From the NCBI GenBank assembly GCA_902728285.1, contig CACVBU010000603.1:65808-129807 (forward strand): a stretch of DNA of 64,000 nt, given 5' to 3'. A program made the translations under genes and the position numbers. Below, piece by piece: positions 6,665 to 62,887 of this stretch (the first letter of the stretch is position 1; every line of letters starts with the position of its first letter). Source of the DNA: Clytia hemisphaerica (Eukaryota; Cnidaria; Hydrozoa; Leptothecata; Clytiidae). The notes below the pieces were generated by a model. The model made no database searches and was not told the DNA's origin. It was given only the letters and a program-made list of their open reading frames with translations.

Positions 6665-8190
6665 TAATAAATAGTGGTATACTAGGAAAAAAACCTGTTT
6701 TGGGTTTGAAAAATCTTCAAAAGGAACGGTCACCCCAGCCAATGAAATTACGACAAAGTCCAAAAAATATCATTTCCGGTTATAACACTGTGAAAATCAA
6801 ATTTACACAGGAATTGTGTTTTATTATCCTTTACTGAATTCCCATAGTGATATGTTTGTAAAAAATCTGTGTCGGGTTTGAAAAATCAAAGGAACGGTCG
6901 CCAGCCGCGATGAAATTACAGGAATTGTGTTTTAGTATCCTTTATTGAATTCTCATAGTGATATGTTTGTAAAATATCTGTGTTGGGTTTGAAAAATCAA
7001 AAGGAACGGTCGCCAGCCGCGATGAAATTACCCTCAACTGCTCCAACTTGGGACTATCTTACGCAACATGGGACGGCCATTCCACCAGCATTTCACCAAA
7101 CCTCAAAAATCATTAGATTTGAGTTTAATGAACCGCGTATTAAAAAATACCCGATTTCTCTTTCGATTTTACAGTAAGTGAAAATACAGACCAGATATCA
7201 ACAAGTTCCATGTTGCGTACACTCATCCCAAGTTGGAGCAGTTGACGGTACGATACAGAGTTAAAAAACAATCATTTTCAGCCATAATACAGTGAAAATT
7301 TCTCCGATCTTGTTCAAACTTACACAGGAATTGTGTTTTAGTATCCTTTACTGAATTCTCATAGTGATATGTTTGTAAAAAATCTTTGTCGGGTTTGAAA
7401 AATCAAAAGGAACGGTCGCCAGCCTCGATGAAATTACGACAAAGTCCAAAAACGATCATTTTCAGCCATAATACTGTGAAAATTTCTCCAATCTTGTTCA
7501 AACTTACACAGGAATTGTGTTTTAGTATCCTTTACCGAATTCTCATAGTGATATGTTTGTAAAATATCTGTGTCGGGTTTGAAAAATCAAAAGGAATGGT
7601 CGCCAGCCGCGACGAAATTACGACAAAGTCCAAAACGATCATTTTCAGCCATAATACTGTGAAAATTTCTCCGATCTTGTTCAAATTTACACAGGAATTG
7701 TGTTTTAGTATCCTTTACTGAATTTTCATAGTGATGTGTTTGTAAAAAATCTGTGTCGGGTTTGAAAAATCAAAAGGAACGGTCGCCAGCCGCGATGAAA
7801 TTACAACAAAGTCCAAAAATGATAATTTTCAGCCATAACACTGTCTGACTGTGAAAATTTCTCCAATCTTGTTAAAATTTACACAGGAACTGTGTTTCAT
7901 TATCCTTATTGAATTCTCATAGTGATATGTTTGTAAAAAATCTGTGTCGGGTTTGAAAAATCAAAAGGAACGGTCGCCAGCCGATGATGAATACAACAAT
8001 AACAAAGTCCAAAACAGGATCATTTTCAGCCATACATAACACCACAAAAAATACTGTGTATCATTGGCTGTGTGTTTGAAAGTTTCATTGTCAAGTTTGA
8101 AAATCCAAAAGGGACAACCACCAATTAGATGACCAAAAGTCCACAATAGATCATTTTTACAGCATAAAATCATGAGAAACACACGTATTT
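6665..8190. repeat. Satellite array, about 185 bp unit, roughly 8 copies
   Basis: Each unit carries GTGATATGTTTGTAAAA, TCGGGTTTGAAAAATCAAAA, GGAACGGTCGCCAGCCGC and ACACAGGAATTGTGTTTTA. Unit starts near 7365, 7548, 7731 and 7921 give a spacing of 183-190 bp. The copy starting near 6848 is shortened to about 110 bp, and the outermost copies are diverged. One copy is interrupted by a 217 bp MITE. No conserved ORF across units. Confidence 0.88.
7032..7248. mobile_element. MITE nested in a satellite unit, TAC target duplication
   Basis: A 217 bp insert interrupts a satellite unit exactly after GATGAAATTAC. It is flanked by TAC on both sides (7029-7031, 7249-7251). Its ends match as inverted repeats over about 41 bp with few mismatches (left CCTCAACTGCTCCAACTTGG, right complement CCGTCAACTGCTCCAACTTG). 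Comparison with uninterrupted neighbouring units gives the empty site directly. Confidence 0.85.
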
Positions 8191-15111: not shown

Positions 15112-15655
15112 AACGTGGAAAACTTTTGGTTGTGAATTTGGACATTTTCTTGCACGTGCGTTTTAAACGTGGAAATTTTTGCTGTGAATTTGAACATTTT
15201 CTTCTACGTGCGATTTAAACTTGGAAAACTTTTGGTAATGAATTTGGACATTTTCTTCCATGTGCGTTTAAAACATGGAAAACTTTTGGTTGTGAGTTTG
15301 GACATTTTCTCGCACGTGTGTTTTTTAAAACGTGGAAACTTTTTCTGTGAATTTGGACATTTTCCTCCACGTGCATTTTAAACATGGAAAAACCTGTGGT
15401 TGTGAATTTGGACATTTTCCTCCACGTGCGCTTAAAACGTGGAAAACCTTTGGTTGTGAATTTGGATATTTTCTTCCATGTGTGTTTAAAACGTGGAAAT
15501 TTTTGCTGTGAATTTGGACATTTTCTTTCACGTGCTTTTAAAATGTGGAAATTTTTGTTGTGAACTTGGACATTTTCTTCCCTGTGCGTTTAAAATGTGG
15601 AAAATGTTTATCATTAACTTGACATTTTCTTCCACATACATTTAAAAAATGTAGA
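15112..15655. repeat. Minisatellite, about 54 bp unit, about 10 copies
   Basis: Each unit reads AACGTGGAAAACTTTTGGTT, then GTGAATTTGGACATTTTC, then TTCCACGTGCGTTTAAA. The sequence GAATTTGGACATTTTC recurs at roughly 15135, 15190, 15244, 15298, 15350, 15403, 15460 and 15513. Most units carry CACGTG, an E-box core, giving a dense array of potential bHLH sites. Overlapping minus-strand ORFs here only translate the repeat. Confidence 0.88.
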
Positions 15656-27229: not shown

Positions 27230-28995
27230 TCAAAATGATTCTCAACTACTCACCAAATACAAAAGGTACATACTACTACCCTTTGTATTGCAAATTCAAC
27301 TTGCTAAAATACAAGGTCTGGATTCATGATCCACGATCAGCTGGGAATTGATTGGAAGAAACTGAGCTAAATTTTGTTAACTGTTGTAAAGAATTTCTAT
27401 TGTCACCCGTTGGTCAAGACTCAGTACCAAATTATGTTCAAGAACTTGAAAATACATATCTTTCTGACTTGTTTGATAGAAGCAGTAGTCCAAGTGGCTG
27501 CTCAGAAGATGATGATAATGAAGATATTACGAGAGAAGATTGGATGATTTTGTCAGACTTTTTGAACAACCCTGATGATAGTTTGTGCAACAGTTCAGAT
27601 TCAATTGAATATTGGATTGAACAAAGTGAACAATTTCTGATGGTGAAAAAATGGAAATGCCAACTTGGATCAAGTTCTTTTATACACTGAAAACATTGAA
27701 TTAGAAAATATCAGGATGCTTAATGAAAATCAGTTAAAAGCGTTTTCTTTTGTTTAAAACCATTATGCTCAAAATTCTCAAACTCAGTTGCTCATTATCA
27801 TCACTGGCCAAGCAGGTTGTGGTAAAAGCTTTTTAATTGACAGACTTCGCTATTTCTTAAATGAATCTTGCTTAGTGGCATCCCTTTTTGGTAAAGCTGT
27901 TTAACATAACATCAATGGCTCTACCCTTCAATATTTGTTGAAATTACCAATAAGAAATAAGCAAAACCATGACTTAAATGAATATGTTTTACTTGAACTA
28001 CAAGAGAAATTTCATGGAAAAAAGTACTTGATTATAGATGAGTTTTCAGTAATTAGTAAACAAAATTTAGCATGGATCAATCGCAGATGTAAACAGGTAA
28101 CATGAAAATGATCTTCCATTTGGTGGATTAAATGTGATATTAGTAGGTGGCTTAGGACAACTCCCACCAGTTAAAGGCAATGTACCTTTTGATGATTTTG
28201 CTGATACTAAGCTTGCCATTGAAGGACATTTTTTATATAATCAATTCAATTCCATTATAATGTTGACTGAAAACAAAAGAAGTTCAAGCAGTGAGGACTC
28301 TCAAGTTAGATTCAGGCAGTGAGGACTCTCAAGTTAGATTCAGGACATTTCTTAACAATGTTCGAAATGGGAACATAGAAGAAAGTGATTGGCAACTTTT
28401 TCTCTCAAGATCACCTTCCGTTAACATTAATGATTCAACCAGACCAGCTCTGTTACGTCTTTCATATCGAAATGAAAAAGTTTCTTCAGACAATAGTAAT
28501 GCATTGCTTGAACTGGGAAATCCAATAGCAAAAGTAACAGCTTTGCGTAGTAAACCCTCTGCATCTAAATGCTCATCTGATGACATGGGTGGTCTACAAA
28601 AAGATCTATTCCTATTATTAGAATCCAGAGTAATTCTAACAAGAAATTTATGGAATAGTGTTGGCCTGTGTATTGGTGCATTAGGTACAGTTCAGAAAAT
28701 AATTTATGCAAGCTATGAGGGGCCTCCCAAGTTTCCTATAGCAATTCTCATTCAATTTGATTCACTTGGTTCTGAGTATGAAAGAACGCAGTTTCCATTA
28801 AAACTAGCTTGGGCAATCACTATACATAAATCACAAGGCCTAACACTAGACCTGGTAAAAGTGAGAGTTCTCACGGTTTAACATACGTTGCCCTCTCAAG
28901 GGTGAGAAACTTGGATTCTTTAGTTGTTGAACCAATGTTTTCAAAGGCTAACTTCAATTGGAACAAGCAACATGCTGAATGGACCTACCTGTTGA
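27230..28995 (+). pseudogene. Helitron PIF1-like helicase
   Basis: The linker ILNYSPNTKGTYYYPLYCKF and KYKVWIHDPRSAGN leads to an acidic segment (SEDDDNEDITREDWMILSD). The SF1 motifs then follow in order: Walker A GQAGCGKSFL (about 27815), Walker B LIIDEFSVI (about 28030), VGGLGQLPPVKG (motif III, about 28140), LTENKRSS (motif IV, about 28265), LAWAITIHKSQGLTL (motif V, about 28805) and, one frame over, TYVALSRVRNLDSL (motif VI, about 28890). Stops lie at about 27757 and 27903. A 28 bp tandem duplication (28288-28343) causes a frame break; counting only one copy restores it. The helicase unwinds DNA for rolling-circle transposition in the Rep-helicase fusion. Confidence 0.88.
28288..28343. 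repeat. 28 bp tandem duplication breaking the helicase frame
   Basis: GCAGTGAGGACTCTCAAGTT plus AGATTCAG is present twice, perfectly. As 28 is not a multiple of 3, the duplication shifts the frame. Perfect identity implies it is recent. Confidence 0.92.
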
Positions 28996-29129: not shown

Positions 29130-30400
29130 ATATTATGACGAAAAAAAATTTTCCGAGAAAAATTACTTCAACCACATTTAAGGTACATTGCACTCTATCT
29201 TTCTGACAAAAATCAGGAAAAACTAATTAAGCAATTTTGCACCAAGTCCAAAAAACTTTATTTTTAGGTAGTTTTTGGCCCAAATTTACCCCAAATTCTT
29301 TTTTCAAAATCGGGCTCCGTCACTTTGTAGGCATTGCTTTTTGTTCATTGTGCAAAATGAAAAAAAATAATGAGCCGATCCCGAGAAAAGCTGCTAACAG
29401 GAAAATGGTAAAAGGGAATTTCCCCAAAAAAACGAAAATCCGTATTTTCGACGAAAAAAAATTTTCCGAGAAAATTACCTCAGCCACATTTTAGGGTACT
29501 TGCACTCTAATGTTCTGCCAAAAATCAGGGAAAAACTAATGAAACAATTTTGCACCAATCCAAAAAACCTTTTTTAGGTAGCTTTTGGCCCAATTTGCGA
29601 AAATCCTATTTGACGACGAAAAAAATTTTTTCCGAGAAAAATTACTTCAGCCACATTTTAGGGTACCTTGCACTCTATCTTTCTGCCAAAAATCAGGAAA
29701 AACTAATGAAGCAATTTTGCACAAAGTCCAAAAAACCTTATTTTTAGGTAGTTTTTGGCCCAAATTTGCCCCCCAAAATTTTTTTTTAAAAATCGGGCTC
29801 CGTCACTTTTCAGGCATTGCTATTTTGTATCATTGTGCAAAAAATTAAAAACAACTAATGAGCCAATCCCGAGAAAAGCTGCTAACAGGAAAATGGTAAA
29901 AGGGAATTTCCCCACAAAATCGAAAATCCGTATTTGACGACGAAAAAAAATTTTCCGAGAAAAATTACTTCAGTCACATTTTAGGGTACCTTGCACTCTA
30001 TCTTTCTGCCAAAAATCAAAAAAACTAATGAAGCAATTTTGCAACCAAGTCCAAAAAACCTTATTTTAGGTAGTTTTTGGCCAAAATTTGCGAAAATCGT
30101 ATTTTGACGACGAAAAAAAAATTTTCCGAGAAAAATTACTTCAGCCACATTTTAGGGTACCTTGCACTCTATCTTTCTGCCAAAAATCAGGAAAAACTAA
30201 TGAAGCAATTTTGCACAAAGTCCAAAAAACCTTATTTTTAGGTAGTTTTTGGCCCAAATTTGCCCCCAAAAATTTTTTTTCAAAAATCGGGCTCCGTCAC
30301 TTTTCAGGCATTGCCATTTTGTATCATTGTGCAAAAAATTAAAAAAAACTAATGAGCCAATCCCGAGAAAAACTTGTAACAGACGAACGGACAACGGTCA
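29130..30400. repeat. Higher-order satellite: alternating long and short units
   Basis: All units share TTTTCCGAGAAAAATTACTT, CAGCCACATTTTAGGGTACC and TTGCACTCTATCTTTCTGCC. Long units (about 310 bp; near 29140, 29620 and 30108) continue through AAAATCGGGCTCCGTCACTT and ATGAGCCAATCCCGAGAAAA. Short units (about 160 bp; near 29455 and 29940) lack that half. The long+short pair (about 480 bp) is repeated as a dimer. The many short ORFs here only translate the repeat. It starts just after the Helitron helicase. Confidence 0.88.
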
Positions 30401-34135: not shown

Positions 34136-35127
34136 TCAATACTTGGTACGTTGTCCACGATTTTTAATAACAGCCTCTATGCGCTTATCCATCGATAAAA
34201 TAATTTTATCCTTTGGGTAGTTCAATCGTATTTCCTTAACACGTGCGGAAAATTCTTCTATGGTTTCACTGGTGATTTGTTTTTCCAATGCTTCTTCACG
34301 GAGGGCTTTTCCAGCAAGATGAAAAAAGTTTTCGATGGGGTTCAAATCTGGCGAACAGGCTGGGATGCAGAATAGATGGGCACCAAGTCGTTCCAAAGCA
34401 CGCTTACCTCTTTTAGAATTTTGCACTGGACAGCCATCTTGCAACACTCTTTTCGACTTGGGGTTAATTGATAATGTGAAGGCAAGTGGAAACTGTTTCC
34501 GCACCATTGTTGCGAAACCCCTCCCGCATAATCGGTTTTCATATTGTTGGGGCCCTGGCCTGGTCCAAGGGATTTGTCTTATAGATAAAACCAACTGCAT
34601 CCAAATAGAAGCTTGTTCCTTTCTTCCAAAATTCCAAACCTAGTCCAAACTTCCTTAACCGTTTTGCAAATTTCAGCCGAGTAGCAAGATCCTTCTGCGA
34701 TATCCATAACCCATCTGCCTCAAATGACGCCTAAATGTTTGGTTTGAGGCCGCTGCTTGGATTATTGGTAACAATGTCTGCAATCGCTTTGAAGTAAAAC
34801 TGCCCTCAAAATCACGCAGGATTTTTATCTGTTGTCTAACCGCACGATAATCTCTTTCTTTTAGAAGAGTTGGTCTGCCGGGGTTGTTAATCCTTTTGTC
34901 GTGGGGACCCTCTCCATTAAGTGGCTTCGTGCTGTGAAAGTATAATGTTCGTCTGGGAATACCTTTGAAATCAGGAAATTCCTTTGCTCTTCACATAATT
35001 TCCGGAACCTTCAGTCCGCCATATTGTACTAGTGCCCGGAGCTGGCAGGGTTGCGCATAAGACAGCTTTTTCTTCTTCTCCTTACTTTTTGTTGTGTTTT
35101 TCTTCTTGTTAGCAGTAGGTTTTGTCA
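34136..35127 (-). pseudogene. Tc1-like DD34E transposase, frameshifted
   Basis: On the minus strand the start MTKPTANKKKN (35127) is followed by a helix-turn-helix region (LSYAQPCQLRALVQYGG), a GRP segment (NNPGRPTLL) and the first catalytic Asp in FYLDAVGFIYKTNP (about 34600). The second Asp is in VLQDGCPVQNSK and the Glu in CSPDLNPIENFF, with 34 residues between the last two, the Tc1 spacing. It ends KNRGQRTKY at 34136. At least one stop (after VPEIM) and two frame changes (around 34700 and 34600) inactivate it. I could not identify its terminal inverted repeats. Related to the pseudogene at 55255-56041. Confidence 0.88.
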
Positions 35128-37784: not shown

Positions 37785-37821
37785 CAAAGTTACGGTGGCC
37801 GAGAAAGCTCAACCAAGATTT

Positions 37822-38096
37822 AAATTTTCAAAATACGAATTTAAATATTCAAAATACAGATTTAAATATTAGAATATGGATTTAAATATCAGAATAAGAA
37901 TTTAAATATAAAAATACAGATTTAAATGTAAGAATATGAATTAAAATATAAAAATGCAGATTTATATATTCAAAATACAGATTTAAATATAAAAATACAG
38001 ATTTAAATATTAGAATATGAATTTAAATATAAAAATACAGATTTAAATATTAGAATATGAATTTAAATATAAAAATACAGATTTAAATATAAGAAT
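37822..38096. repeat. Left subterminal array of the IS3EU-like element
   Basis: About 16 units of (A/T)AAATACAGATTTAAATAT or AGAATATGAATTTAAATAT, 16-19 bp each. It abuts the terminal inverted repeat and mirrors 47860-48372. Probably multiple transposase-binding sites. Confidence 0.85.
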
Positions 38097-39953
38097 ATGA
38101 ATTTGGTGATTTCAAACCTTTAAGAGGAAAACGCCTTCCAGTCACAGTCAAAGAAAATGCTGATTATTTTGAGTTAAAGCGAGAATCAATGAAAAAACAC
38201 TCTGATAATTTCCAGGACTTTTGTGGTCTGGAAGCCCACAAATTGTTGTACTCTGATTACAAGGAAATGATCACAATCCCTGGCTCTATCGAAGACTTTC
38301 GCCTTGACAAATACAAAGAATACTTGGGTAAATCTTATTCGCAATTATTATTCTACTTGTGCTCGGAAATAGACTTTAACACCTTCAAAGGGATTGACAA
38401 TGATAAAAACAGTGACATTGAAATGGAAGAGTCACTCTTTTCAGAACTTGAGTCTAACAGTGGCCATCACCAAATCATTACAGGGATTTCAACCACAACT
38501 ACTGAAGCTAATGATCCAGCATTGGTCGTTTTCACCACCACCAGTTCATCGCTGCCTCTAGATCTATCGACCAATTCCATTAATGCTTTAACAACCAGTC
38601 CATCACATTTTGCTTTTATGTCAACATCACTTCCTAGTTCTACCCAAAATCTATCTCCACCTGTTACAACCGTGAACCCACCAACACCACCACCAATAAT
38701 AGCCCACCCACTATTGTCCATTAAAGCACATGCATCGAGTGGCATTCCTACCATTCCATCTATTGTTATTCCTGATGATGTTGATGAACTACCACTAACT
38801 GATCAGGACAATCTTAACAATCGTTCAACCCTCAAGGAAAAACTTGACACCATTCAAAGTGCTGTTTCCAGTAATCCTACTTTTGATTTAGAGATAAGAA
38901 GAAAGAGGGCTTGGCTGGACACTCTCCAAAAATTGAAACGGGCTTTCTCAAAGGGGGTTCGTCCCATAACAGTCAAGTTTGTCGGGGAAGAAGCTGATGA
39001 TTTGGGAGGTCCACTCAGAGAATTTTACACAGTTGTTTTCGAAGATGTTAAAAAACATTTAATGTGTTCAGGTGGTCATACTTTTACATTTTTACATGAT
39101 ATCGAAAAACTCAAAGATGGGGACTTCCTCATTTTAGGAAACCTTTATTCCCTTGCTTTGATTAATGGATGTGCAGGGCCAAGGTCTTTAATGCCGTCTC
39201 TGGTGTCCAAGCTATTTTTTCAACCATGCCTTTCTAAGTTGTCCGACTCCATCAGACATACCGGATCTTGAAATTCAAAAAAAGGTGCTACAGATTGAAA
39301 TGTGCAAATCATCCCAAGAGTTTGATGAATGCTTGGTAAACTTTCCTGAAAGGTTTGATTGCATCTCAAAAGCAAATGTAAAATTTGAAGAAAAAGACAG
39401 CTTTATTCAAAACATATGTGAGCATTATTGTATTTCAAAGTGTTCTGAAGAAATATTGGAAGTTATAAGAGGTATGGATCTATTTGGCTTACACACCGCC
39501 CTGATTGAACATTTTGATGAAATCAAATCTGAGTTTGTACTTGCCGATCAATTGACTGCTCAAGATGTCAAATCTTTATTTGAAAAAGTAAAACACTCCG
39601 AGAACAAGGAAATCCTAGAAAAGGAACAAGATGCATATTACAATTTTACCAATTTTATTGAGAATCTGGAAGATGCGCCATATTGTGTTAAAGGTGTTAT
39701 TGATATAGATGAAGAAGGTAATGAAGTTCCATTAGGCGACAAGGAGGTTTCGTTGGGAGACTTGGTACAATTTTTGTCTGGTACAAGATTTGTGCTACCT
39801 TCAATGGTTGGCAAACATGTCATCAAATTTAAAAATAAACGTGACTTTGGTGAATCTATTGAATCTACAACTTGTACCTTGGAAGTCAGAATACCTCTAA
39901 ATGAGAGGTATTGCACCTCAACCAAAGCATTTGACAAAAATTTTGCTGATGGA
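38093..39953 (+). pseudogene. HECT-type E3 ubiquitin ligase-like gene of the transposon
   Basis: An open frame from 38093 (first ATG 38189) reads a ~100-residue N-terminal part (LPVTVKENADYFELKRE, EYLGKSYSQLLFYLCSE), then a Ser/Thr/Pro-rich linker (about residues 105-195 from the ATG). The HECT N-lobe starts with RPITVKFVGEEADDLGGPLR and EFYTVVFEDV. Near 39249 a one-base frame change is needed, after which IPDLEIQKKVLQ continues. The C-lobe includes VSLGDLVQFLSGTRFVLPSM and the active-site region ESTTCTLEVRIPL, whose Cys sits where HECT ligases accept ubiquitin, followed by LR/VRxPL. Stop at 39954-39956. HECT domains run about 350 residues; the N-to-C length here fits a somewhat divergent, G2E3-like form. 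The slip may be a mutation, a tiny intron, programmed +1 frameshifting or an assembly error. Confidence 0.82.
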
Positions 39954-39956
39954 TAG

Positions 39957-41327
39957 GGCCAGGATATGGTAAACCCTAGACTTTGCTGTGTTTTCTGCTT
40001 ATTTCTTGCGTTGATATTGATATGTGGTGAAATTGATTTTCTTTTGATATCCTTCTTGGAGGGATCTTGGATCTTTTTATGAGAACTGGTATTTAACATG
40101 ATTTTATTATGATTGAGGTTGAACTGAAAAGCCCCAAATTTATTAGATATTTTATTTGATAAACCTTAAAGATGTTTTGTGATTTAACCCTTTCATTTAT
40201 TATTCATACAGGTGTGCCTTAGCATATTTGGTCACCTTTAGGCTTATTTTACAAAAATAAACCCACGTGGCTACTACCTAAATGAATAGTGTTCAATGAG
40301 AACTGAATGAATATGAATTTCAATAAAGCCAAAGTTGGAATTTTACAATAATTATCAGGGTACACAAATTTGACAACCCCATATATTTATTTCGATAGTG
40401 TTTGTATATTGTGTATATACATCTATTCTGAGAAATGAGGGCTGGTTTATTTTGATATGTTGCTGGACAATAGTCAAAATATGCCAACTCCTCTCCATTT
40501 TATTTTACTCATTGTTTCTTTATGGATCACTTTTTTCCACTTTTATTAGGATAGTTTTTAATATATTTTTTGATATCGTAAAAGTTGATATATTTAGTAC
40601 ATTTAGTTTTATTTCATTGTGATGAATCATGAACTAGGGTAAAGGAGATAATTCCCATATTTTGCATGGATTTTAATTTTGGGCGTTTTTGGATGCTGAT
40701 GATTCCAAAAGACATAATGAATATTCAGCCTTCTACCCCTGCACCGGGTTGGCCAAAATGCCTGAAAATGTGTGTGTTCTCTCCTCTTGGTCGAACAGCC
40801 TCAAAAAAGACTACCGATGTGTAGTACTACTAACGTCAGCGTCAGATTAAATCCCTATTCCTGGGTATTCTGACCAATATGAGTAGCAGGTTGAACAATG
40901 GCTTTCCTTAAAAATGAATACGATTTTCGGAATCAGCACCCAAAATATCCAATATCAATTCGTCCAGATAAAAATAGAAAATGAACTGTTATTTTTCACT
41001 GGTTAAAGCTCAACAGCCTCGAATTCTAAACCCAGCACCAGTCAATGAATTCGAATCTTCTGATTTCAACCTTTCTTGCTGTTTCTTTTTATGTTTTGGT
41101 CAAACATTCAAGTGAAATAATTTTATTTTGATGATTTTCTTTTTCACGGGAATCAACTCTGTCGACCTGCATTGCTTTATCATTGGTCTATCACACTATT
41201 ATTTTTCCATTCATTGTATGTAAATAGAAAATTACCTTTTGTTAATTTCGTAAAACAGTTTTCATTGTCATTGTATTGACCGATCTCTTTACATGGTTTA
41301 TCACACCTTATCTTTATGGAATTATCC
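39957..41327. other. Interior of the transposon, no gene seen
   Basis: 3' of the HECT gene. AT-rich; no motif-bearing ORF. ORF 40398-40622 is hydrophobic and unsupported. Confidence 0.4.
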
Positions 41328-41329
41328 TA

Positions 41330-41553
41330 GTCTCAGGTACCTAATAAAGGTACCCCCTCCCCCGCTAATTAATTTTCCGAAAATTTTCCATGCGGGTCAT
41401 TCTTATTCTCCTCTCTTATTAATCTTTGGAAACATATCTTTTAAAGTTCATTCTTTTGTCGTAATTCTTCTTACTAGCCTCCTCCAATTTTTCCACCTGG
41501 GCATTGTAGTTTCCACATCCGCCCCCCGCTTATTCTAAACCCGTGCCCGAGAG
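41330..41553. mobile_element. TACTCT-type MITE, diverged copy
   Basis: Shares GGTACCTAATA, GCTAATTAATTTTCCGAAAA, TTTTCCAC and CCCCCCGCTTATTCTAA with 5572-5846. The ends GTCTCAGG and CCCGAGAG are flanked by TA. Inserted in the IS3EU-like element. Confidence 0.7.
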
Positions 41554-41761
41554 TATTTTGTAAATGGAAAAATTTCTCGACTTCCTTTTTCAGAACTTTT
41601 AAAATATCAATTTCGGTTTCAATCAAAAGCCTTTTATTCTATCACACTAGATTTTTTCGCCATTTCGAAGGTACACTGTTAGCCAACCTCGTATAGGTGT
41701 GTTTGTTTACAATGTCGGGTTTTCCCGAGGGCTTTCAAGAGTAGCCTCTAACAACTGCATA

Positions 41762-42160
41762 CTTTAATGGGATATAATATCGCGGGGATAAAATTTCGCG
41801 GTTGGGGTTATCCGCGAAATTCAAAAATTTCGCGGGACTTAATTTCGCTGGTGGCAATATTTTCACAATTTTGTATCTTTATACTGTCAAATCATGCATA
41901 TTGGTTGTTGTATTACACATTATTTGCGCTTTTTTGATGCAAGTAACCATTCAAAAAGTATTTATTTGACATAATTTGAGTTTTGATCAGAAGTATTTCG
42001 CGGATGGGGCCCTTCCAATTTCCATTGGGATTTAATTTCGCGGATTTTCGCGGATGACACCCAAATCCGCGCGAAAATTTAATCCGCGTGAAAATTTAAT
42101 CCGCGCGAAAATTTAATCCGCGTGAAAATTTAATCCCCGCGAAAGTTTATCCCATTAAAG
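41762..42160. mobile_element. MITE, CTTTAATGGGATA termini, TA target site
   Basis: CTTTAATGGGATA at the left and TATCCCATTAAAG at the right are perfect, with TA on each side. Both subterminal zones repeat AAATTTCGCG / CGCGAAAATTTAATC four to six times, inverted relative to each other. A related, degraded member is at 55011-55157. Confidence 0.85.
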
Positions 42161-42162
42161 TA

Positions 42163-42822
42163 GATATTTGTTTTCAGTTTATTTTAGTTATGATTGATCA
42201 CTCAAAGAACTTTTGAGTTTGCAGACAGTTTTCTTATTTGAAAAACGTACGAATTTTTTACGGACCGAAATCTTCCCAATTTAGCATCACCTCCCGACCA
42301 AAAGTTCAAAATACATGCAACATTTTTGCTTTTAACAAAAAAAGTGTCATCAAAACTTCTGAATAGGGTGGAGAAATGGTCCGTTTCCTCCCGCTAACTA
42401 ATTTTCCACATTATTTTTCCCACCCCTTCCACTCCCTCGAGAAACTTCGATGGAGAAAGGTGACAAAATCTGCTACGTGACCCCCAGACACTCAAAATTA
42501 CCCATTGACTGTGGACCAGGGGATGAGGTTAGCCATCCAAGCATGAAATTTATTGACGATGTTGTTTGCTATCGTACTTTCGCTCAACTTTATAATCGCA
42601 CTGATTGGCTGATTCGGGTAAACTACATCTTAGTCTCAAGGTTCAGAATTTGATTGGTCAGTGGGTTGGTAATTTTTGGTATATTGGGTAGGTTGTAGGT
42701 TAAGTACGACACTTTACACTCGCTTTCAACCCGGTGGAAGAATACCGAATACCCGAACATATTCTCTTTTTCCAAATCAGCAGAAACATCCATATAAGAT
42801 ACACGCTTTTACAGGCGTTGAA
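42163..42822. other. Interior of the transposon, no gene seen
   Basis: ORF 42450-42653 (MEKGDKICYVTPRH) has no motif I recognise and is probably chance. Confidence 0.35.
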
Positions 42823-42824
42823 TA

Positions 42825-43183
42825 CACTTTTTTTATTAGAACATAGTTTATAAGGACATTTAGGCTGAAATTCGTCGAAAAATTAAGAACATCGTAAGAA
42901 CATGCCCAGCCTCAGTTTGGGAAAAAATGACAAGAAACTACAATTTTTTCTTCTTTTCAAGCAGTTTTAACCGAACTTAGGGATGGATCTTCTAAATTCG
43001 AGAGTCAAATATTGTCCAAATTTTACCAATTTTAAGTGCTCTTTATTTTGCATGATATTGTCGATTTAGAGTAGTCTGAAAAATAAGAACGCATTTAAGA
43101 ACATTTTAGGCTGAAAATCGCTAAAAAAATAAGCAAATCCAGGCTCAGCCAAATTTTAGGTGCTCTAATAAAAAAAAAACGTG
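42825..43183. mobile_element. MITE, CACTTTTTTTATTAGA termini, TA target site
   Basis: CACTTTTTTTATTAGAACA at the left; CTAATAAAAAAAAAACGTG at the right; TA on each side. Internal AAGAACAT and CAGCCT words match 16286-16544 in style. Confidence 0.7.
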
Positions 43184-43935
43184 TAGGAGTTGTAATTGTA
43201 TCAATGACAAAGTGTTTGATTAAACCAAAACCCGAGCTAACCATCATTTTTTCATCCGAAAGCCGAATTCTTTATGTTATATCGATTCTTCCAGTATGAT
43301 ACGGTATGTCCAGGGAAATTGAAAGATTAGAACCTACACTGTCAAATCATCTATAGTCTTCTATGCACGTGCCACTAGACTCGAGACCTTGGATGGAACT
43401 GGAATGTTTTTTTCTTACTTAAGTCGTCTGGTCCTTGATCACACAAGCACCGGATTAAGTAAAATCTTACAATTAGATTTCACTAGAAAGACACTTAATT
43501 CTAATTCACTTTCCCCCCTGAGAAATCTCTTTCCTGGCTTTAGATTCAATTACCAATTTTTACTAGCATAAACGTGGGTAATCTATTTACCAAGGAAAGA
43601 GGTATGTTGAATACGATGTTATATGTTTGTTTTCCCGCTACAAAAGGGAAAGTGTCAATGGAACAAAATATCACTTTGTCACATATGACCGAAACAGCAA
43701 AACTTCTCAAACAGAAAATGTAGTCAAACGTCTGTATATCAACAGTTCAAAACAGTTATATTTTCTGATTGCTCAAAGTTATCAAGAAAATTACATTGCT
43801 TTCTATCGAAAACACGAAATTCCCTAGAGGTCGTATACAAGAAGAAAATACACAAAAACATAAAAACATTAAGTCAATTCTCCAAACAGCTTAACATTGT
43901 ATCCACGTTCAAAAGCGTTAATTTATCTAGAGGAG
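43184..43935. other. Interior of the transposon, possible remnant ORFs
   Basis: ORFs 43389-43571 and 43627-43827 lie on the HECT strand. The second (RESVNGTKYHFVTYDRNSK) looks protein-like in composition, but I cannot assign it. Confidence 0.3.
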
Positions 43936-43945
43936 CTATTGAAGA

Positions 43946-44020
43946 ATTCCCGGACAATTCCCCTTGGTGAATCCCCCCCAGTAACCCCCCCTTAGTGAAT
44001 CCCCCCGTTGTCCGGACACT
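43946..44020. mobile_element. Very small (75 bp) element with 10 bp target duplication
   Basis: CTATTGAAGA is duplicated perfectly at 43936-43945 and 44021-44030. The insert begins ATTCCCGGACAATTCCCC and ends with its imperfect inverse (GGGGTTGTCCGGACACT-like, core CCGGACAA/TTGTCCGG). A 10 bp duplication is in the Mutator-like range. The interior repeats TTGGTGAATCCCCCC. Confidence 0.65.
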
Positions 44021-44030
44021 CTATTGAAGA

Positions 44031-46075
44031 TGGCCGAGCATAGAAGCTTTTTCTTTTTTCCCCGGCATGTAGGCGTTAAAAAACAATATTGATGTCCAGA
44101 CAATCCATGACATTATGTCTCTTATAGTGTTCTACTCGGAGACTAAAAATTGTGCTAACTGCTATATGATTACCAGATTTTTGCTTTAATATTTCGCAAC
44201 TTTTATCGAAATGGCATAAACTTTCGCGATTGCCTAGTTGAGAATTTTCAAAGACATTTCCTTTCGCAAAAAAGGGTGAAATCCACAAAAGTGCCAAAGT
44301 GAACTTCTTTTAGATTCCGAGTAAATTTCGTCTCGGGAAAATTTCTTCCCTTAAGGTATCTGAAGCCTTTTTCTACAGCGTTTAGATTTTCGCTAGCGAT
44401 TTTAGATTTCCGTATGACTTTTTCCGGGGGTTTGTTTTAGATTCGCATCAATATTTTAAGCCTAAAATTTTCCTAAAGTTTTTTATAATCCTTACCCCCT
44501 GATTAGTACCAATCATAAATATAAAACTTGCAGAAAACTTACGCACTCCTCCACATTGAGTTTTGAGTAATCCGTTATTTTTCTAAATTTGCTTTATTTT
44601 GAAAACTGTCAGATATTTAAATGGAGAAGATTATTTTCGAAATTAGACTCAGACTTCACTTTCCTTTTTCGTAACAAACATTCTCAAACATTTCAAAGTC
44701 ACACTCAAATGTCTTACCCAATGGCTAGCTACAATGGCTAAGGAAGCCTTTATTGGACCTACCTGGAGATGACCTACCACAAAGATGCGTATTAGCAATG
44801 CCAAAAATATGACGGAGTCCGAATTTAGAGGAAAATTTTTTTTCCGGCCGAAAATGATGAAAATATGCCATTTAATTTTGCACGGTTAACTTGATCGTTT
44901 TTCCTTTGTTTCTTTCCTATTTTTCTATTTTTGACTGTCTTCATCAGGTAGGTCCAAGCAGCATCCGGCTTGATTCTCATGAAGCTCTTTGTTAGCAATT
45001 TATTTGTGGTAAAAATTAGCACTGCAAGGTCATCTTTAACCTAAAACCCTTGAATATATAGACTTATCTACTCTTTTCAAAAAATGATATAGTGATGAGT
45101 CGTCTGTGACGAAGGGGTGGGACGACTATAGTTTATTAACGTCCAAATCAAAAGTAAAATAGACAGATACAGGATTTGCTCTCACAGTTTGTTTAATAAA
45201 CTGGTATATAATTCAGGTAATCAGTAATCATCTCCTAGGCATATCATGTCTACCACGCAAGCCCTACCTGTTAGAGGATCTCGGTTCTCTTTGGAGTTTT
45301 TTATCAAGAATCTGGATGAATATTAAATGAACTTTTGAGCGCTGTGATTGGCTGTAGTAAAAGAAACTACGCGAAAGTATTACGTCATTAACATTAGGGC
45401 CCGGTAGGGCAAAATAATACACAGTTTCAGAAGAATCGGCTGAATTAACGCTGTCAGATCAGCACATTCGCCACAACATTTCAGAGCAGATTGTGGTGCT
45501 GGCAGAATGAATGATTGGTTATTAGATTAGGTAATCGGAGAAGGAGTTTTTCAATCTTGTACCCAGAGGGCCACGTGCACCACTTTCTGGTTTTACTGAT
45601 AGACAAACCTAAGAGACTGGGTTCGAGTTGGGGAGTTTTTCTATTCCATTCCAATTCATTTCTCTAAGGAAGTTGATCAAAACCTTGAGTGAATATTTCA
45701 AAAGTCACAACATTAAATGCGGAAAATCTCACGACTCTCGAGAAATTCCAAGTATCACAATATCTTGACTATTTAGAACATCAGTGAAATGCCTTCATTG
45801 AGTAGTTAACCTTAAAATTTCGCCAGCGTATGCGATTTTTCCTATGTCAACCCTTGCAGATCGACGGAGGTTTACTGTTTAGCTTGGAGATGTATAGAAG
45901 CTACGTAGGACTCATCTTTTTATATTTATTCCCAAAATATTGAAAAGATAGATGACTCTGATTGGCGGACTGAAATATCAAAATGTCGCATTTCTAAGTT
46001 TTCCAAAAACCCTGTGAGTGATAGTTCTTCTACTTTGTTGCTTTTGCGATACCTTGGACTCGTTAAGGTTAAATC
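44031..46075. other. Interior of the transposon, no gene seen
   Basis: No motif-bearing ORF. ORFs 44076-44297 and 44825-45022 are unsupported. Confidence 0.4.
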
Positions 46076-46373
46076 CTGGGGGGGGCACTCGATTTGAAAA
46101 CGATCGTATGTTCGTTCGAAATTAAGGCCTTTAAAAATCGACCCTTACAGTACAGGAAAATAATGACTCAAAATCGACCCTCATGATGCAATTTTTCAAA
46201 ATCTTTTGCCCTAATTTTTTTGAAATTTTCTAAGATTGACCCTAAAAATTCGTATTCTCCAAAATTTTAATCCCTTACAGTGCACCTCCTCTCTCGTTGA
46301 TCCTTACAGTGCCTAAAAAACGTACCCTTAAGGGCTGCACATACGGTAGGTCACTTAGTGCCCCCCCCCCCCG
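46076..46373. mobile_element. MITE with GGGGGGCACT termini
   Basis: CCTGGGGGGGGCACTCGAT is mirrored by CACTTAGTGCCCCCCCCCCC. Internally AAATCGACCCT recurs three times. The poly-G ends prevent exact border calling. Confidence 0.6.
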
Positions 46374-46501
46374 GTGGAATATATAACTTTCAAGAAGCTC
46401 TAGTTTTAAATCATATGAAAATAACATTGAGTGTTTTCTTCAACTTATTCTGGTTAACGCAACTGGAAATTCCACTTCAAATATATCTACTATGATACAA
46501 A

Positions 46502-47766
46502 TTAATAACATAATTCTACAATTTTCTCAAAAACATAAAGCGCCTCTACCCAACTTCTAGGAGGATAGGGGAGCCGTTCAGTTTCTACAACACGAGTAAA
46601 AAAATCAAATAAAATATCATCTTTCTCGTCTTCAATAACATTTGCAGCTTCAACAAAAATATTTCTTTGATCAAGAGCACTTTGCAGAAGATCATTACTG
46701 ACTGTGAGCTTTTTATTGTTAAAATTCAAAGGGTCGGGTACGTAAAAAAGAACATCCGGTATCCCAGAAACAGTATCATGGCGAGATTTCCTAATGTAAT
46801 GTGTATTCCATTCATGCACAAACTCGTCCAGCTGATTTTGTAGGAACTCTGCATAAACAAACCAAACACATTCTGTATGAATTCTGTTGCCTACTTCTAG
46901 GATGCCATCCGCACACATTTGCTTGAAATAGTCGATAATCCAATATGTAAAAGATTTCTTCAAGTGTGACCACCAACATTCAATCCGTTGGTTTGCTGTT
47001 GAGGTTCCATAGAAGTGAGCATTTTCATTTTGGTGAAAGTAGCACTTCCATTTTCTGTACCACAATCTGTTCTCAAAAACTTTGGGCAGAAGCCCATTTG
47101 TCTAACAATACTCAAATAATGAAAAGCAGGAATAATTGGATTGTTATTTGATCTAACAACTTTTAGCCATGAAAATCCATCAATACATCCGTGTATCGGA
47201 AGTCCATAAGGTTTTAACTTATCGTATCCATCCGAATGCCAACAAAAGTTCGGACCAGGCGATGAATAACGTCTCCGGTTGAGTCTCCTTCTGCGTCTCA
47301 AGGATGTACCTATTGGGTCAACTTGGCGTAAAACTTCCATAACTGTATCTCTTTTTACCTTTATACCATATGATCTTCTGAGATGGTTCCACATTCCTCT
47401 ATAACCTACCAACGAATTTGGGCCTTCTATCTCCCTTTGAATTATAGCTGTTAGCTCTTGATATGAAACGTTTGATGATCGCCGGCTCAAACCAAAGCGC
47501 TTTAGTCGTCTTTTCAATGTACTCAAACTCATTGAGATACCATGGTAAGTACTCAAAAAAAGTAGAATATGTTCATTTGAGTAATATCGAGCGAAGTAAA
47601 GCTTGATTGCCTCTTCTTCGTCAAGTAAATGCGAAGGAGGCTGGCTTTGATATAATTGTTCAATCTTTTCTCCACAAACAGTACAAAAAAAATGTCTATC
47701 GTTTAATCTTGATCCACAAGAGGTACAATACGCCATTGTACTGATCTGGGACTGATCTTTCTTCAC
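46502..47766 (-). pseudogene. IS3EU-like DDE integrase/transposase, one frameshift
   Basis: Minus strand from ATG 47766 (alternative ATG 47736). Residues about 13-37 form a zinc ribbon (CTSCG ... CTVCG). A helix-turn-helix segment follows (MSLSTLKRRLKRFGLSRRSS), then YRGMWNHLRRSYGIKV. The catalytic core has the first Asp in WHSDGYDKLKPYG, then IHGCIDGFSWLKV, the second Asp in FLRTDCGTENG and, after a one-base slip near 47030, the Glu in ANQRIECWWSHLKK. The C-terminal part runs to LCY at 46502. DxxKL, IHGxIDG and NQRIExWW are, to my knowledge, the hallmark of eukaryotic IS3EU-type and related animal integrase-core proteins. Expected total is about 420 residues. It converges with the HECT gene. 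Confidence 0.87.
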
Positions 47767-47859
47767 GTAACAAATCTCTGTTCCTAGATTCTGAGAAGAA
47801 ATGCCATTTATTTTTAAGATTAGTAGTTCAAGTATTCAAATCTATATTGTAATTTTTAA

Positions 47860-48372
47860 ATCTGTATGTTGAATATTTAAATTCATATTTTGAATACTTA
47901 AATTCATATTCCAATATTTAAATTCGTATTTGGAATACTTAAATTCGTATTTTGAATACTTAAATTCATATTCCAATATTTAAATTCGTATTTTGAATAC
48001 TTAAATTCATGTTCCAATATTTAAATTCGTATTTGGAATACTTAAATTCATATTCCAATATTTAAATTCGTATTTGGAATACTTAAATTCATATTCCAAT
48101 ATTTAAATTCGTATTTGGAATACTTAAATTCGTATTTTGAATACTTAAATTCATATTCCAATATTTAAATTCGTATTTTGAATACTTAAATTCATATTCC
48201 AATATCTAAATTCGTATTTTGGATATTTAAATTCATATTCTTATATTTAAATCTGTATTTTTATATTTAAATTCATATTCTAATATTTAAATCTGTATTT
48301 TTATATTTTAATTCATATTCTAATATTTAAATCTGTATTTTGAATATTTAAATTCATATTCTAATATTTAAA
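47860..48372. repeat. Right subterminal array of the IS3EU-like element
   Basis: About 27 units of AATACTTAAATTC(A/G)TATT or AATATTTAAATTCATATTC, 16-20 bp. Mirrors the left array and abuts the terminal inverted repeat. Unit subtypes alternate (CATATTCC, CGTATTTGG), so the array grew by local duplication. Confidence 0.85.
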
Positions 48373-48406
48373 TCTTGGTTGAGCTTTCTCGGCCACCGTA
48401 CAAAGT

Positions 48407-58658: not shown

Positions 58659-61322
58659 TATGTTTGAGTGGACAATAAATTATGAAGTCAGATCGCCGCC
58701 AAAATTCGATCCTTCAAGTCGTCCCGTCGTACTAGAAGTCGTCCCAATTTTCGGCAGTCGAATCATCCCAAGTTTCAAGTCGCCCCGTCACACTAGAAGT
58801 TTGCAGGTCGTAATTCTTTTAAGTCGAACCATACCAAGTTTCTAGTGGCTCCTATCAGAAGTTAACGCGTTGGAACTTGGTACATGTTCCAATCATGTAT
58901 GTTTAAATGTGTGTTCATGTCATCCATCAGGTATATTATGGAGATCAAATTATAAATTCGCATTGTTTTCAAACTTTGACATGGCGCGGGCGGGTTTATC
59001 TGATATATATTTTGATTCACTTGGCAAGTGAACGTTTCTTCGCCCGGGTCAACCCATGCCATGTGAGTGGAATTGGGTAGTCAGTTCAAATTGCTAACAG
59101 GACGCTCATTAGTAAGCATCTATAGCTGCGAGAATAGATAGGCCTATAAAGCCTCCTGCAACTCAACCAAATAGAAATAGAAAATCTCTAAAGGTGGGAA
59201 ATGCACTAGAGATAGCGACAAATAAAAAAAACACAACAATTTCCCCGTCCCGGATAGTTTGTCCACCCCAAACTAAAAGTGGTCATCACTATGATGATCC
59301 TACCAAATAAGAGTTGACATCATAGTAATGTTCAAAATAATTGTCCACCCAATGTTTTGAATCCCCTTATTTTGTTCCAGAGACAAATTACACATGCGTG
59401 TTAGAATATGTGAGCTAGTGTGTTTCTCTAAAGTGAAAGGAAGGGGATTGGCTTACCCAGCCAACTTTTTGATGCGTGGTCAGGTGAAATTCCGTAATCC
59501 AAAAACCTGATCTTCAGAGCTTTAGCGTGTCGGGAGAAAACTTCTACATCTGGTACCCCAGATAACGCGGGGATTGTATCTTCCTCTGAGTTGTCTAGAT
59601 AATTTCGTGGCAGCTGTGCATAAAACAGTTTTGCCAAAAAAGTTTTCTCAGACGGAATTTAATTTAGTGAATGTCCGAGAAAGTAAAATTTGATGGGAAT
59701 TTGATCGAAATTTTGGGGTAAAACTCGATTTAAAAACAGCAAAAACACCGTTTTAGAGCCTTTTTAGAGCAAACATTGAATTTTGGGATACAAAAATTAA
59801 TGACCAAAAGGAGGTACTGAAAGAAGCGGAATTTTTATACTGGTGTTTGACAAATGCCAAATACAATACATAAAATATTAAAAATAAACTAAAAATAGAT
59901 GAACAGATTCTCAAAAGTTACAAGGCGTGGCCCTAAAAGTGTTCTTGTCAAAAGACTAACCTCCTTTCAAATTATGGAAAATCCATGGCAGCTCTTTTAG
60001 GAACTACTAACGACGAAAATCCGCCTCATACAAAATAGACATTATCACATCAAAATATCATCAAAATATTATCAAAATTTTAGGTCTTATCTAAGAAATG
60101 TTTGCACCGCATAGCATGCTGTATGTAGTGTGCAAAGAAACTTGGTTTCCACATGTGTTTGGCAAGGATTCCAAATTTGGACTAAGGCTTTTTCGAATAG
60201 TAATACAGTAAGGAAAGTATGGACAAACGGCGAAAGATTTCTATCAAAAGAAAATAAGAAAAAATGTAAAATAAACTGTTGCAATAAAGCTAATGAAGGT
60301 TTTTTAAAACTAATATCAACAAAATACAGTGTGTCCGGGAAAAAAACAGAACATAATTTAAAATATTAAAAAAATTTTCAAAATCTTTCGATCCTCCAAT
60401 TCCCAAGACAACCTAGTTTTATAGAGAACAATAAAAGATGTCCCTTATAAATTGTTCCATGGATTTTGATGGTTCTATCTTAGATTTTATATGAATTCTG
60501 TTCAGATTTTTTCTGGACGAACTGTGTTGGTAAAAAAAAATTACCAAAAAGATTTCCACAGGGATTGACAAAAGTTCTCCCAATTCAATTTGATAACTGT
60601 TCAGTATCAGTGACAGAACCTATGATAAATAAAAAACAAAACAAAAGGTCATCAAAAAGTAAAATGTGTGTTTGACGACCACTTGCTGTCAAGTGAGGTA
60701 ACGTCATTGGTTACCATGACAACTAAAACAAGTTCTCCAAAAGGGAAAGATTTTGTACCAGTCGAAACAACACTGAACAAGTTCTCAAAGAAAAGCCAAA
60801 ACTATATTGGAAATTTTGATTCTCTCATATCGCCTTTCAAACATAAGTTGCGAACCATTGTTTCACGCTCCATCGACTGGTAAATATATTTTAATTTTGG
60901 AAAGCTTTTTTAATTGTCATGGTAACGCAAAACATAAAACAATGACGTCCTAGACTCGATCCCTAAAATTTTCTTCTTCAATGTTATAAAAAACAGAATC
61001 CATCATAAAAGTAACTTTCATCTTCGATATTATAGAAACAGAATCTGCATGTACTGAAAGTCGTTTCTATAATGAAGTAAAACGGAATAAAACGACAAAA
61101 TGTTCATAGGTGTATTTAAGTAAATTTCCAAAGATTTTTCCATCGAAGTAAAACAAAACAAAATGTCAAAATATTCCGATCAAAGGAAGAATAGTTAAAG
61201 TTGAATGAAATACCAAAGACATCTATATCGAGGTAAAAGCAGAACAAAATATCCAAATGCTTTGAATGGATTTAAAATCTCCCAAATCCAGGAGAAGATT
61301 TGACGTCGTCGATGAAGTTCTT
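58659..61322. other. Spacer, no confident gene
   Basis: AAGTCG(C/T)CCCGTC(A/G)(C/T)ACTAG is repeated at 58712-58800. Minus ORF 59428-59637 (MAKLFYAQLPRNYLDN) and plus ORF 60668-60883 (TTKTSSPKGKDFVPVETTLN) look protein-like in composition but match nothing I know. Confidence 0.35.
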
Positions 61323-62066
61323 TCAGAAATCATCTTGGCGGTAACTGTCAATCAATGGGATTCGAAGCGTTAAGAAGCAAGTGCTTGGGTTGACTCTTGT
61401 GCCAGAAAAGTTTTTCGGGCTGTTAGTTGCATTTTGATTTGTTTCTTCCTCTGTGTCGATACCGGTACTGCTTGGTTTTGAGCCTGGTTGAAAGCACTTG
61501 ATTTTTCCATTTCTCTTAAATCCCATAGGAGGCAAGTATCGCTATCCAGTTAGGAATTGTAAAAGGTCTGAAAGGGAGAATTTTTCAAATTTATCTCCTT
61601 TGACCATATCAATAAACTGCCTCTATTGGTAGGCAATATCCTTCTCTAAGATTTTAACCTCTTGCTTCGGCGAGAATTCAAACTTGTAAAGTTCAGATAT
61701 CGAATCGGCAGTCAATACGCTGGGATCGTAAAGTGTTTGTTTTCCACGATAGCTTTTAAGCTTTTCTTGAACTTCATAATCAGGTACATCTTCGATTTCG
61801 AAATTGGCTGTTTCGTCATCAAGGAGACATTTCATAAATGCTTCTGAGAAGTAGTGTGGCCCTGGTGAGCCTATTAGTAGACCAAGAGCTATCAGCTGAC
61901 CATAAACAAAGAAGTCTTTATTTTCCATTCTATGTATATTGTTTCGTAAGGTATATCTGCACTCCATACCATTGAGCGGATATTTCGAGGCTTCTGAAAA
62001 TAATTCTCGGTGTTGCCCGCCATCTCCAACACCATAATTTATGGCAACTTCGCCAGGAAAAATCAA
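61323..62066 (-). pseudogene. Second HECT-like E3 ligase fragment
   Basis: After a plausible acceptor (CCAATCTCAG) the minus-strand frame reads LIFPGEVAINYGVGDGGQHR and ELFSEASKYP (the HECT N-lobe start, V-x-F-x-G-E-x-A-x-x-x-G-G), YGQLIALGLLIGSPGPHYF, and EIEDVPDYEVQEKL. After a TAG it continues in the same frame with FSLSDLLQFLTG, another TAG, RYLPPMGFKRNG, and NPSTCFLTLRIPL with the catalytic-type Cys. The last part aligns with 39740-39900 of the transposon HECT gene (LQFLSGTRFVLPSM, TTCTLEVRIPL). Two in-frame TAG codons inactivate it. No IS3EU-like termini are visible around it in the window. Confidence 0.75.
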
Positions 62067-62887
62067 CTGAGATTGGTGATAATTCAGCTTTGGCGAAAAT
62101 GTAATATATTATTTATATTATTTTAGGAAATAATCTGAAATGGAGTAAGTTCAAAATTTGTAAAATGTCCTTTCCGCAACACACTCTTGATTTTTTCTGC
62201 CTAAAAAGGTTTTTCTTGCAATTTCGATACCCAATTTTTATTCTGTAGGTCTGCCTCATGGTTTTGATGTAATTAGTTAGATTGATTTTAAAGGTAGAAA
62301 ATCACAGGATATTGCTAAATTACCACATTCATGATTTTTTCCATTAAAATCATGAAAAATGTTCCACCCTGCAAAAAAATGCTTTTGGGCCTTAAAATTT
62401 GGGGGCACTGACTGGTTTCTGATAAAACCGTCATACTAGATTGGTTTGAGTACAAATATTGGAATTTAAAACCATTTTGAAATTCAATACTTTTACTCAC
62501 CCGTTGCAGAAAGGACATGGTATATATTTGAGCAGATTCGCCCTGGAATGTATTGTGGTTGATGAGGTTAATAAAGTCAGCTGGTAATTTAATTTTTAAT
62601 CAAAATTATTCTTCCTTTATGATACTTTTGATATTTCAGAAGATTGTGCGTTTATTGTTTTTTTTTAGGACTTAAGTTATAAAGAGAGAAATGGAGAGAT
62701 GTTTACTGTGCTGTTTTATCATCATGACATAGTTTTGTTTTCATATGTAAAATTGTGAACTAAAAAAGTGTTAAGTGTTAACCTTTTTTTATTATACTGT
62801 ATTACACAATTAAAAAATATATTTCGGCACATTTCACTTGTTTATAATATATTACATTACTTTAAATATTTTCCCCATATTTTTCTG
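62067..62887. other. Spacer
   Basis: AT-rich; no supported ORF. Upstream exons of the HECT-like pseudogene would be expected here but I do not see them. Confidence 0.35.

Follow-up and report, generated by a model that had tools for sequence, protein, structure and literature searches.

In a 64,000-nucleotide stretch of the Clytia hemisphaerica genome (the window, contig C421:65808-129807; the genome searched comprised 417 Mb in 951 contigs), we identified a 10.6 kb DNA transposon in which an integrase-type transposase gene and a predicted HECT ubiquitin ligase gene are enclosed by the same terminal inverted repeats (TIRs). The transposase and HECT genes constitute a conserved module, convergent and bounded by shared ends, a reading of which we are nearly certain. 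The window itself holds a dead, decayed copy of this two-gene transposon of the IS3EU superfamily, and intact copies were found on other contigs (designated C with a number).

The unit occupies 37791-48400. Its first and last 35 bases are identical inverted copies (TACGGTGGCCGAGAAAGCTCAACCAAGATTTAAAT) diverging from base 36, and a perfect 6-bp CAAAGT duplication abuts both ends. A 14-base piece of the TIR occurred exactly twice in the window, at the ends of the element; when up to two mismatches were allowed, one extra match was obtained at 11009, with 0.05 expected from shuffles. TIRs arising by chance were rejected on these grounds. Inside them the integrase gene (minus strand) and the HECT gene (plus strand) face each other. 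A first-pass annotation, made from the letters alone, had described a complete-looking IS3EU-like element with these termini, this duplication and matching subterminal arrays. All of these structural features were recovered, and the ends are complete as described; the genes are not, as the HECT gene carries a 5' deletion and both genes are frameshifted. The features of the unit, in window positions, are as follows.

37785 to 37790, no strand: left target site duplication CAAAGT, read from the sequence
37791 to 37825, plus strand: left TIR of 35 bp, identical to the right TIR
37816 to 38104, plus strand: left subterminal array of about 20-bp units, 13.9 copies at period 20
38097 to 39956, plus strand: predicted HECT E3 ligase gene, broken (frames 38093-39271 and 39192-39956, frameshift near 39.2 kb), with the catalytic-Cys region near its 3' end
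39957 to 46504, no strand: long interior without a recognised gene, largely common to the long copies where read
46505 to 47736, minus strand: IS3EU integrase-type transposase gene, broken (frameshift near 47.05 kb and missing bases), with zinc ribbon, helix-turn-helix region and rva_4/DDE core
47844 to 48373, minus strand: right subterminal array of 20- and 21-bp units, 12.3 copies at period 41
48366 to 48400, minus strand: right TIR of 35 bp
48401 to 48406, no strand: right target site duplication CAAAGT, read from the sequence

The Pfam family PF24764 (rva_4) matched both halves of the broken integrase frame in the window, and matched an intact copy at 3.3e-31. Residues D169, D228 and E262 were invariant in 13 aligned proteins and probably constitute the DDE triad, in line with the D, D and E motifs annotated beforehand on the minus strand. 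A structural model of the relative P0012 (mean predicted local distance difference test score, pLDDT, 83) had a fold near those of IstA, TnsB, MuA and retroviral integrases. Neither Transib nor RAG1 was present among the 11 Pfam families at E ≤ 1, and the transposase is not RAG-like in this respect. The termini of the window family are TACGG..CCGTA. According to the available part of PMC10045372, IS3EU elements have TA..TA ends, usually 6-bp target duplications and an IS3/IS481-like integrase transposase; the window element is alike in its TA..TA ends, its 6-bp duplication and its integrase-type transposase, and differs by its second gene. TIRs of more than 30 bp ending in TAYGG..CCRTA, with 6-bp duplications, are given for fungal IS3EU elements in the accessible portion of PMC12730594, and the window termini fit this pattern. 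On these characters we assign the window element to the IS3EU-type DNA transposons, the placement proposed in the first-pass annotation.

A 110-bp end probe gave at least 172 matches in the genome, and ten other contig sites among the matches listed were fetched. Each of the five long copies (C869, C18, C41, C768 and the window) carried the HECT gene in the same position. A search of the genome with the integrase returned at least four loci with identities of 98% or above (C18, C869, C768 and the window), each with the HECT gene. Four short copies with both ends seen (C273, C195, C771 and C416) carried neither gene; in two others (C316 and C79) only one end type was seen in the DNA fetched, and neither gene was seen there. 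The pairing annotated in the window was retained in every long copy fetched, and the short copies without HECT were also without integrase. Perfect 6-bp duplications flanked six of the eight family copies with both ends (CAAAGT, CAATCC, CTTATA, GAATAC, CATAAC and CTTAGG), the two misses being C41 and C18. Differences to C869 were below 1% in the compared parts, which suggests recent movement. Within this family, the short non-autonomous copies of C195 and C771 are similar to each other in their interior, where frames of 101 and 118 amino acids are unlike either gene. Contig C79 contains two right ends that point the same way, 886 bp from each other (L022:350 and L022:1236), each followed by CTTAGT, which is either a tandem copy or an assembly effect.

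The two genes might also have come together by chance, through separate insertion of a HECT gene in one copy. No target duplication was seen around the HECT gene itself, which sits just inside the terminal array, likewise in the C815 element described below. Since the gene keeps its place in the five long copies and lies inside the TIRs of a second family, a separate insertion was rejected, and we regard chance nesting as scarcely credible.

Measured against C869, which is intact, the window copy has lost 301 of the 2184 coding bases of its HECT gene, 292 of them at the 5' end including the start and the zinc ribbon, and its left array passes directly into the HECT frame. From the integrase gene 28 of 1263 bases are missing, and each of the two genes is split by a frameshift. 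Because the copy is broken, it was rejected as a sole basis for judging gene function. Intact frames of both genes are present in C869 and C18 (HECT 727 amino acids, integrase 420 amino acids). In C768 the HECT body is open with an altered start and the integrase is interrupted by inserted DNA, while C41 has a HECT gene with one base missing and contains 6,073 N, with no integrase read. The interior of the window element also contains short repeats of 16-17 bp (e.g. AATCCGCGCGAAAATTT) at 42064-42149 and 41769-41801, for which we offer no explanation.

The HECT identity of the second gene was assessed by profile and fold. The Pfam HECT family (PF00632) gave no match to the HECT protein of the window family at E ≤ 1; on eight relatives it scored three above the cut-off (P0007, P0008 and P0009) and three below, with two unmatched. 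As Pfam by itself overlooks this protein, recognition required a profile built from its relatives and a comparison of folds. The profile of 11 proteins gave 52 matches at E ≤ 1 among solved sequences, of which 51 were HECT ligases; the best reached 3e-7, and the N-lobe accounted for most of the matching region. The family HECT is 99% identical to the EukProt protein TCONS_00039003 (P0003); if this name denotes a transcript, the gene is transcribed. AlphaFold2 modelled P0003 with a mean pLDDT of 69 and a predicted template modelling score (pTM) of 0.62, the other four models reaching 44-58. With this model, every one of the 50 PDB matches listed by Foldseek was a HECT ligase; E-values started at 4e-11 and alignments spanned some 400-475 columns, though TM-scores normalised by query length were low, at 0.33-0.52. 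In a viral library six fold matches below 0.001 were obtained, three to giant-virus proteins named HECT and three to uncharacterised mimivirus-group proteins. The Cys of 'TTC' aligned with the catalytic Cys of HUWE1 ('HTCFN'), within a second stretch of the profile alignment that was weak, and this C-lobe Cys (TC) was kept in all seven aligned rows reaching it and also in C578, C152 and C815. A bilobal HECT fold with a catalytic Cys is supported by the profile alignment and the moderate-confidence model, in keeping with the HECT-like gene and active-site Cys region annotated at first on the plus strand. The fold might instead be that of a scaffold or a ubiquitin-binding transposase regulator without ligase function. 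The silence of Pfam and the moderate confidence of the model (mean pLDDT 69) leave some room for this; conservation of the Cys, weakly aligned as it is with that of HUWE1, speaks against it, and we judge it very improbable.

The same pair recurs beside related integrases. Seven related integrase loci were chosen among the top scorers rather than randomly, and the DNA downstream of each was retrieved; the flank of C35 ended after 2.3 kb at a contig end and was excluded, leaving six assessable. In four of these (C578, C152, C815 and C195) a HECT gene on the opposite strand faced the integrase. The four belong to two families, C815 with C195, and C578 with C152, the latter two close to each other. 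HECT proteins beside related integrases were 38-54% identical to that of the window family, the C578 protein 50% over 392 residues. The C815 element is complete (690418-695985, 5,568 bp), with CATAGT on both sides, termini TATGG..CCGTA, inverted ends (TAYGGAAGCCGAGAAGGGACAACC) that span 24 bases or more and contain one mismatch, and arrays of 21-bp units at the left and 20-bp units at the right (L073:447-697 and L069:3619-3964). Both of its genes (integrase 690772-692016; HECT, 688 amino acids) are open and convergent. Its integrase is 51% identical to that of the window family and its HECT protein 38% over the HECT domain, and because these proteins are so far apart the module is probably old. 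The window and C815 families both have subterminal arrays that repeat every 20-21 bp, roughly two turns of the helix, and their unit sequences differ.

Outside genomes yielded 9 HECT proteins including P0003, with 2 further ones later, and 1592 integrase homologues, the best 120 of which were used. A final search for homologues, made with the entire alignment, returned 5 proteins, 2 of them new, and missed most of the earlier ones; homologue counts are therefore lower bounds. The HECT proteins P0004, P0006 and P0010 lie on contigs identical in size to those of the integrases P0033, P0012 and P0021, respectively. Such identity was observed for 3 of 10 outside HECT homologues, with 0.06 expected among the 118 listed integrase contigs, and these three pairs probably share contigs. 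A quick tree of 121 integrases placed the window integrase and P0033, P0012 and P0021 in one clade of nine rows (Shimodaira-Hasegawa-like approximate likelihood ratio test 99), and a careful tree of 12 integrases kept the nine together (99/97). Over seven pairs, including the three paired only via identical contig size, HECT and integrase distances correlated (r 0.65, reached by 17 of 5040 permutations). The closest pairs were the same in both trees, namely the window family with contig 20021, and C578 with C152. In the HECT trees the first of these pairings had weak support in the tree of 7 (61/37) and 100/100 in the tree of 11.

Selection on the HECT gene was examined in C869, C18, C768 and C41, the window copy being omitted because it is broken. 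The alignment between copies, which the first-pass annotation had suggested for a rate comparison, contained 11 synonymous variable sites among 475 and 10 non-synonymous ones among 1706, with no stop (pN/pS 0.25; one-sided Fisher p 0.0019), and the gene is under purifying selection among copies. Indels pointed the same way: 0 in 3266 coding and 11 in 5317 non-coding bases between C869 and C18 (p 0.005), and 0 in 2729 coding and 14 in 5920 non-coding bases between C869 and C768 (p 0.005), the two comparisons sharing C869. Substitution rates to C869 were alike in coding (0.3-0.85%) and non-coding DNA (0.3-0.8%); constraint is visible only in the synonymous split and the indels. The integrase alone, in three copies, showed 3 synonymous and 4 non-synonymous differences, which gave no significant test (p 0.16).

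A further feature links the two proteins. A CxxC..CxxC zinc ribbon lies within the first 60 residues of 73 of the 121 integrases, and of 70 of the 77 that are at least 395 amino acids long. It was likewise present in all four HECT proteins reaching upstream of the GD.KP.RG region (the window family, P0006, P0011 and C815). The ribbon may serve as a shared address of ligase and transposase, and is the strongest hint on mechanism in these sequences.

Several observations weigh against a strict pairing or against recruitment through the ribbon. Ten HECT sequences (P0004, P0005, P0007-P0010, P0132, P0133, C578 and C152) start at or after GD.KP.RG with no ribbon visible, and may be cut or may lack it. 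The zinc ribbon is a short, common motif, and zinc-ribbon Pfam scores were below the cut-off in both proteins of the window family (E 0.024 and 0.018). The flanks of C234 and C624:328297 contained no HECT gene within 7 and 6 kb, respectively. No HECT gene was found within 1.5-kb flanks of 40 integrase loci, a reach that is uninformative for C578 and the window family, where the HECT gene lies farther off, and the flank check covered a minority of the integrases of this genome. The other five members of the nine-row clade have no known HECT partner, and the partner label requires 3 changes on the integrase tree, as few as in 14 of 500 shuffles. Deeper branching of the two trees differs: the HECT data reject the integrase grouping (approximately unbiased test, p-AU 0.025), and the integrase data do not reject the HECT grouping (0.17). 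Because of this difference in deeper order, HECT genes may have moved between elements.

With a HECT gene missing beside two of the six assessed integrases, and with HECT genes common in animals, the gene could be a captured host passenger without a role in transposition. Such a passenger is hard to reconcile with HECT genes kept at 38-54% identity beside related integrases and open in C869, C18 and C815, with the pN/pS of 0.25, and with the same convergent layout in all four HECT-bearing flanks. We therefore consider it improbable.

We propose that the HECT protein would act as a cofactor dedicated to transposition. The zinc ribbon at its N-terminus, which is of the transposase's type, would recruit it either to the transposase or to the array-bearing ends, and recruitment by this route seems probable. 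The subterminal arrays are perhaps phased binding sites for the ribbons of the transposase or of the HECT protein. At this place the predicted ligase would attach ubiquitin to a bound protein. The likeliest substrate would be the transposase complex, whose ubiquitination would free or take apart the strand-transfer complex or regulate the amount of transposase; we hold the choice of this complex as the main substrate at slightly less than even odds. A host silencer at the element would be a close second candidate. Strand-transfer complexes of phage Mu are very stable, and their release needs active disassembly by an unfoldase; because the integrase fold resembles that of MuA, ubiquitin marking of the complex is plausible here.

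The predicted ligase could alternatively serve counter-defence, by marking for destruction a host silencing or restriction factor, e.g. a chromatin or small-RNA protein at the element. Conservation of the HECT gene and its purifying selection would suit this role. Fungal IS3EU elements bear an alpha-kinase and a TET/JBP enzyme, and the part of PMC12730594 consulted argues that TET/JBP, which occurs on other transposons as well, aids escape from silencing. Against counter-defence, the ribbon type common to the four HECT proteins and the transposase points to a common place or partner, and a protein acting freely would benefit every element of its cell, which makes physical pairing less expected. 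Counter-defence is possible in our view, and on the doubtful side.

Accessory enzymes are known from IS3EU elements. As far as the text available from PMC12730594 goes, the fungal elements share with the present one TIRs of more than 30 bp, 6-bp duplications and an accessory modifying enzyme opposite to the transposase, and those bearing TET also encode an alpha-kinase opposite to it. The accessory enzymes there are an alpha-kinase and a TET/JBP dioxygenase, whereas here a predicted E3 ubiquitin ligase occupies this position. RAG-like elements (RAGL/ProtoRAG) resemble the module in having two convergent genes, a transposase and a partner, inside TIRs and short duplications (PMC7204232, in part). 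They differ in their Transib-type transposase, their 5-bp duplications and a RING E3 placed inside RAG1, in contrast to the separate HECT protein found here. RAG1, which descended from a transposase, contains a RING that is active as a ubiquitin ligase (a title cited there names autoubiquitylation), and Chapaev DNA transposons encode a putative RING-type E3 module (both from the accessible text of PMC4411706). We count the ligase activity of RAG1 in favour of the cofactor reading. In Chapaev the RING is fused to the transposase and belongs to an E3 class unrelated to HECT. Plant Mutator-like elements with a Ulp1 peptidase are also transposons bearing an enzyme of a ubiquitin-like pathway; Ulp1 removes SUMO-type tags rather than adding ubiquitin, and Mutator-like elements are another superfamily. 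In the open-licence PMC literature no paper on HECT with IS3EU was found, Repbase lying outside that search, so that a description elsewhere is possible. IS3EU elements with an alpha-kinase or TET/JBP are known, and a HECT ligase as the second gene was not found described. We tentatively suggest, at somewhat less than even confidence, that a lineage of IS3EU transposons independently evolved a dedicated stand-alone, transposition-coupled E3, unlike the RING of Chapaev and RAG1. This zinc-ribbon HECT protein would have its targeting module in common with the transposase and would ubiquitinate the transpososome or the chromatin at the ends.

Other features of the window were recorded. A second HECT-class relic with frame breaks lies at 61278-62069 (minus strand); it matched PF00632 at 0.0047, below the cut-off, is 28-39% identical to the transposon HECT proteins, and its end resembles theirs by eye. 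Nine integrase probes gave no match in the window outside the 37791-48400 element. Near the element, a DDE_3 transposase fragment at 34136-34639 (minus strand; PF13358, 3.4e-07) represents another transposon remnant. An open frame at 28267-28881 (plus strand), with weak, below-cut-off matches to the ends of Pif1 and UvrD-type helicases, is possibly a Helitron remnant. Tandem arrays were present at 7264-8034 (184-bp units), 15112-15647 (52-bp units) and 29137-30382 (494-bp units).

Why DNA transposons retain genes other than the transposase is mostly obscure. In the present case several families link a predicted ubiquitin ligase with the transposase, and intact copies exist, so that roles of ubiquitin in complex disassembly, dosage or anti-silencing are directly testable. 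HECT relics, among them the second one recorded in the window, might also derive from such transposon genes. If the proposed role is true, a stand-alone HECT ligase would be a core, long-conserved component of a DNA transposon.

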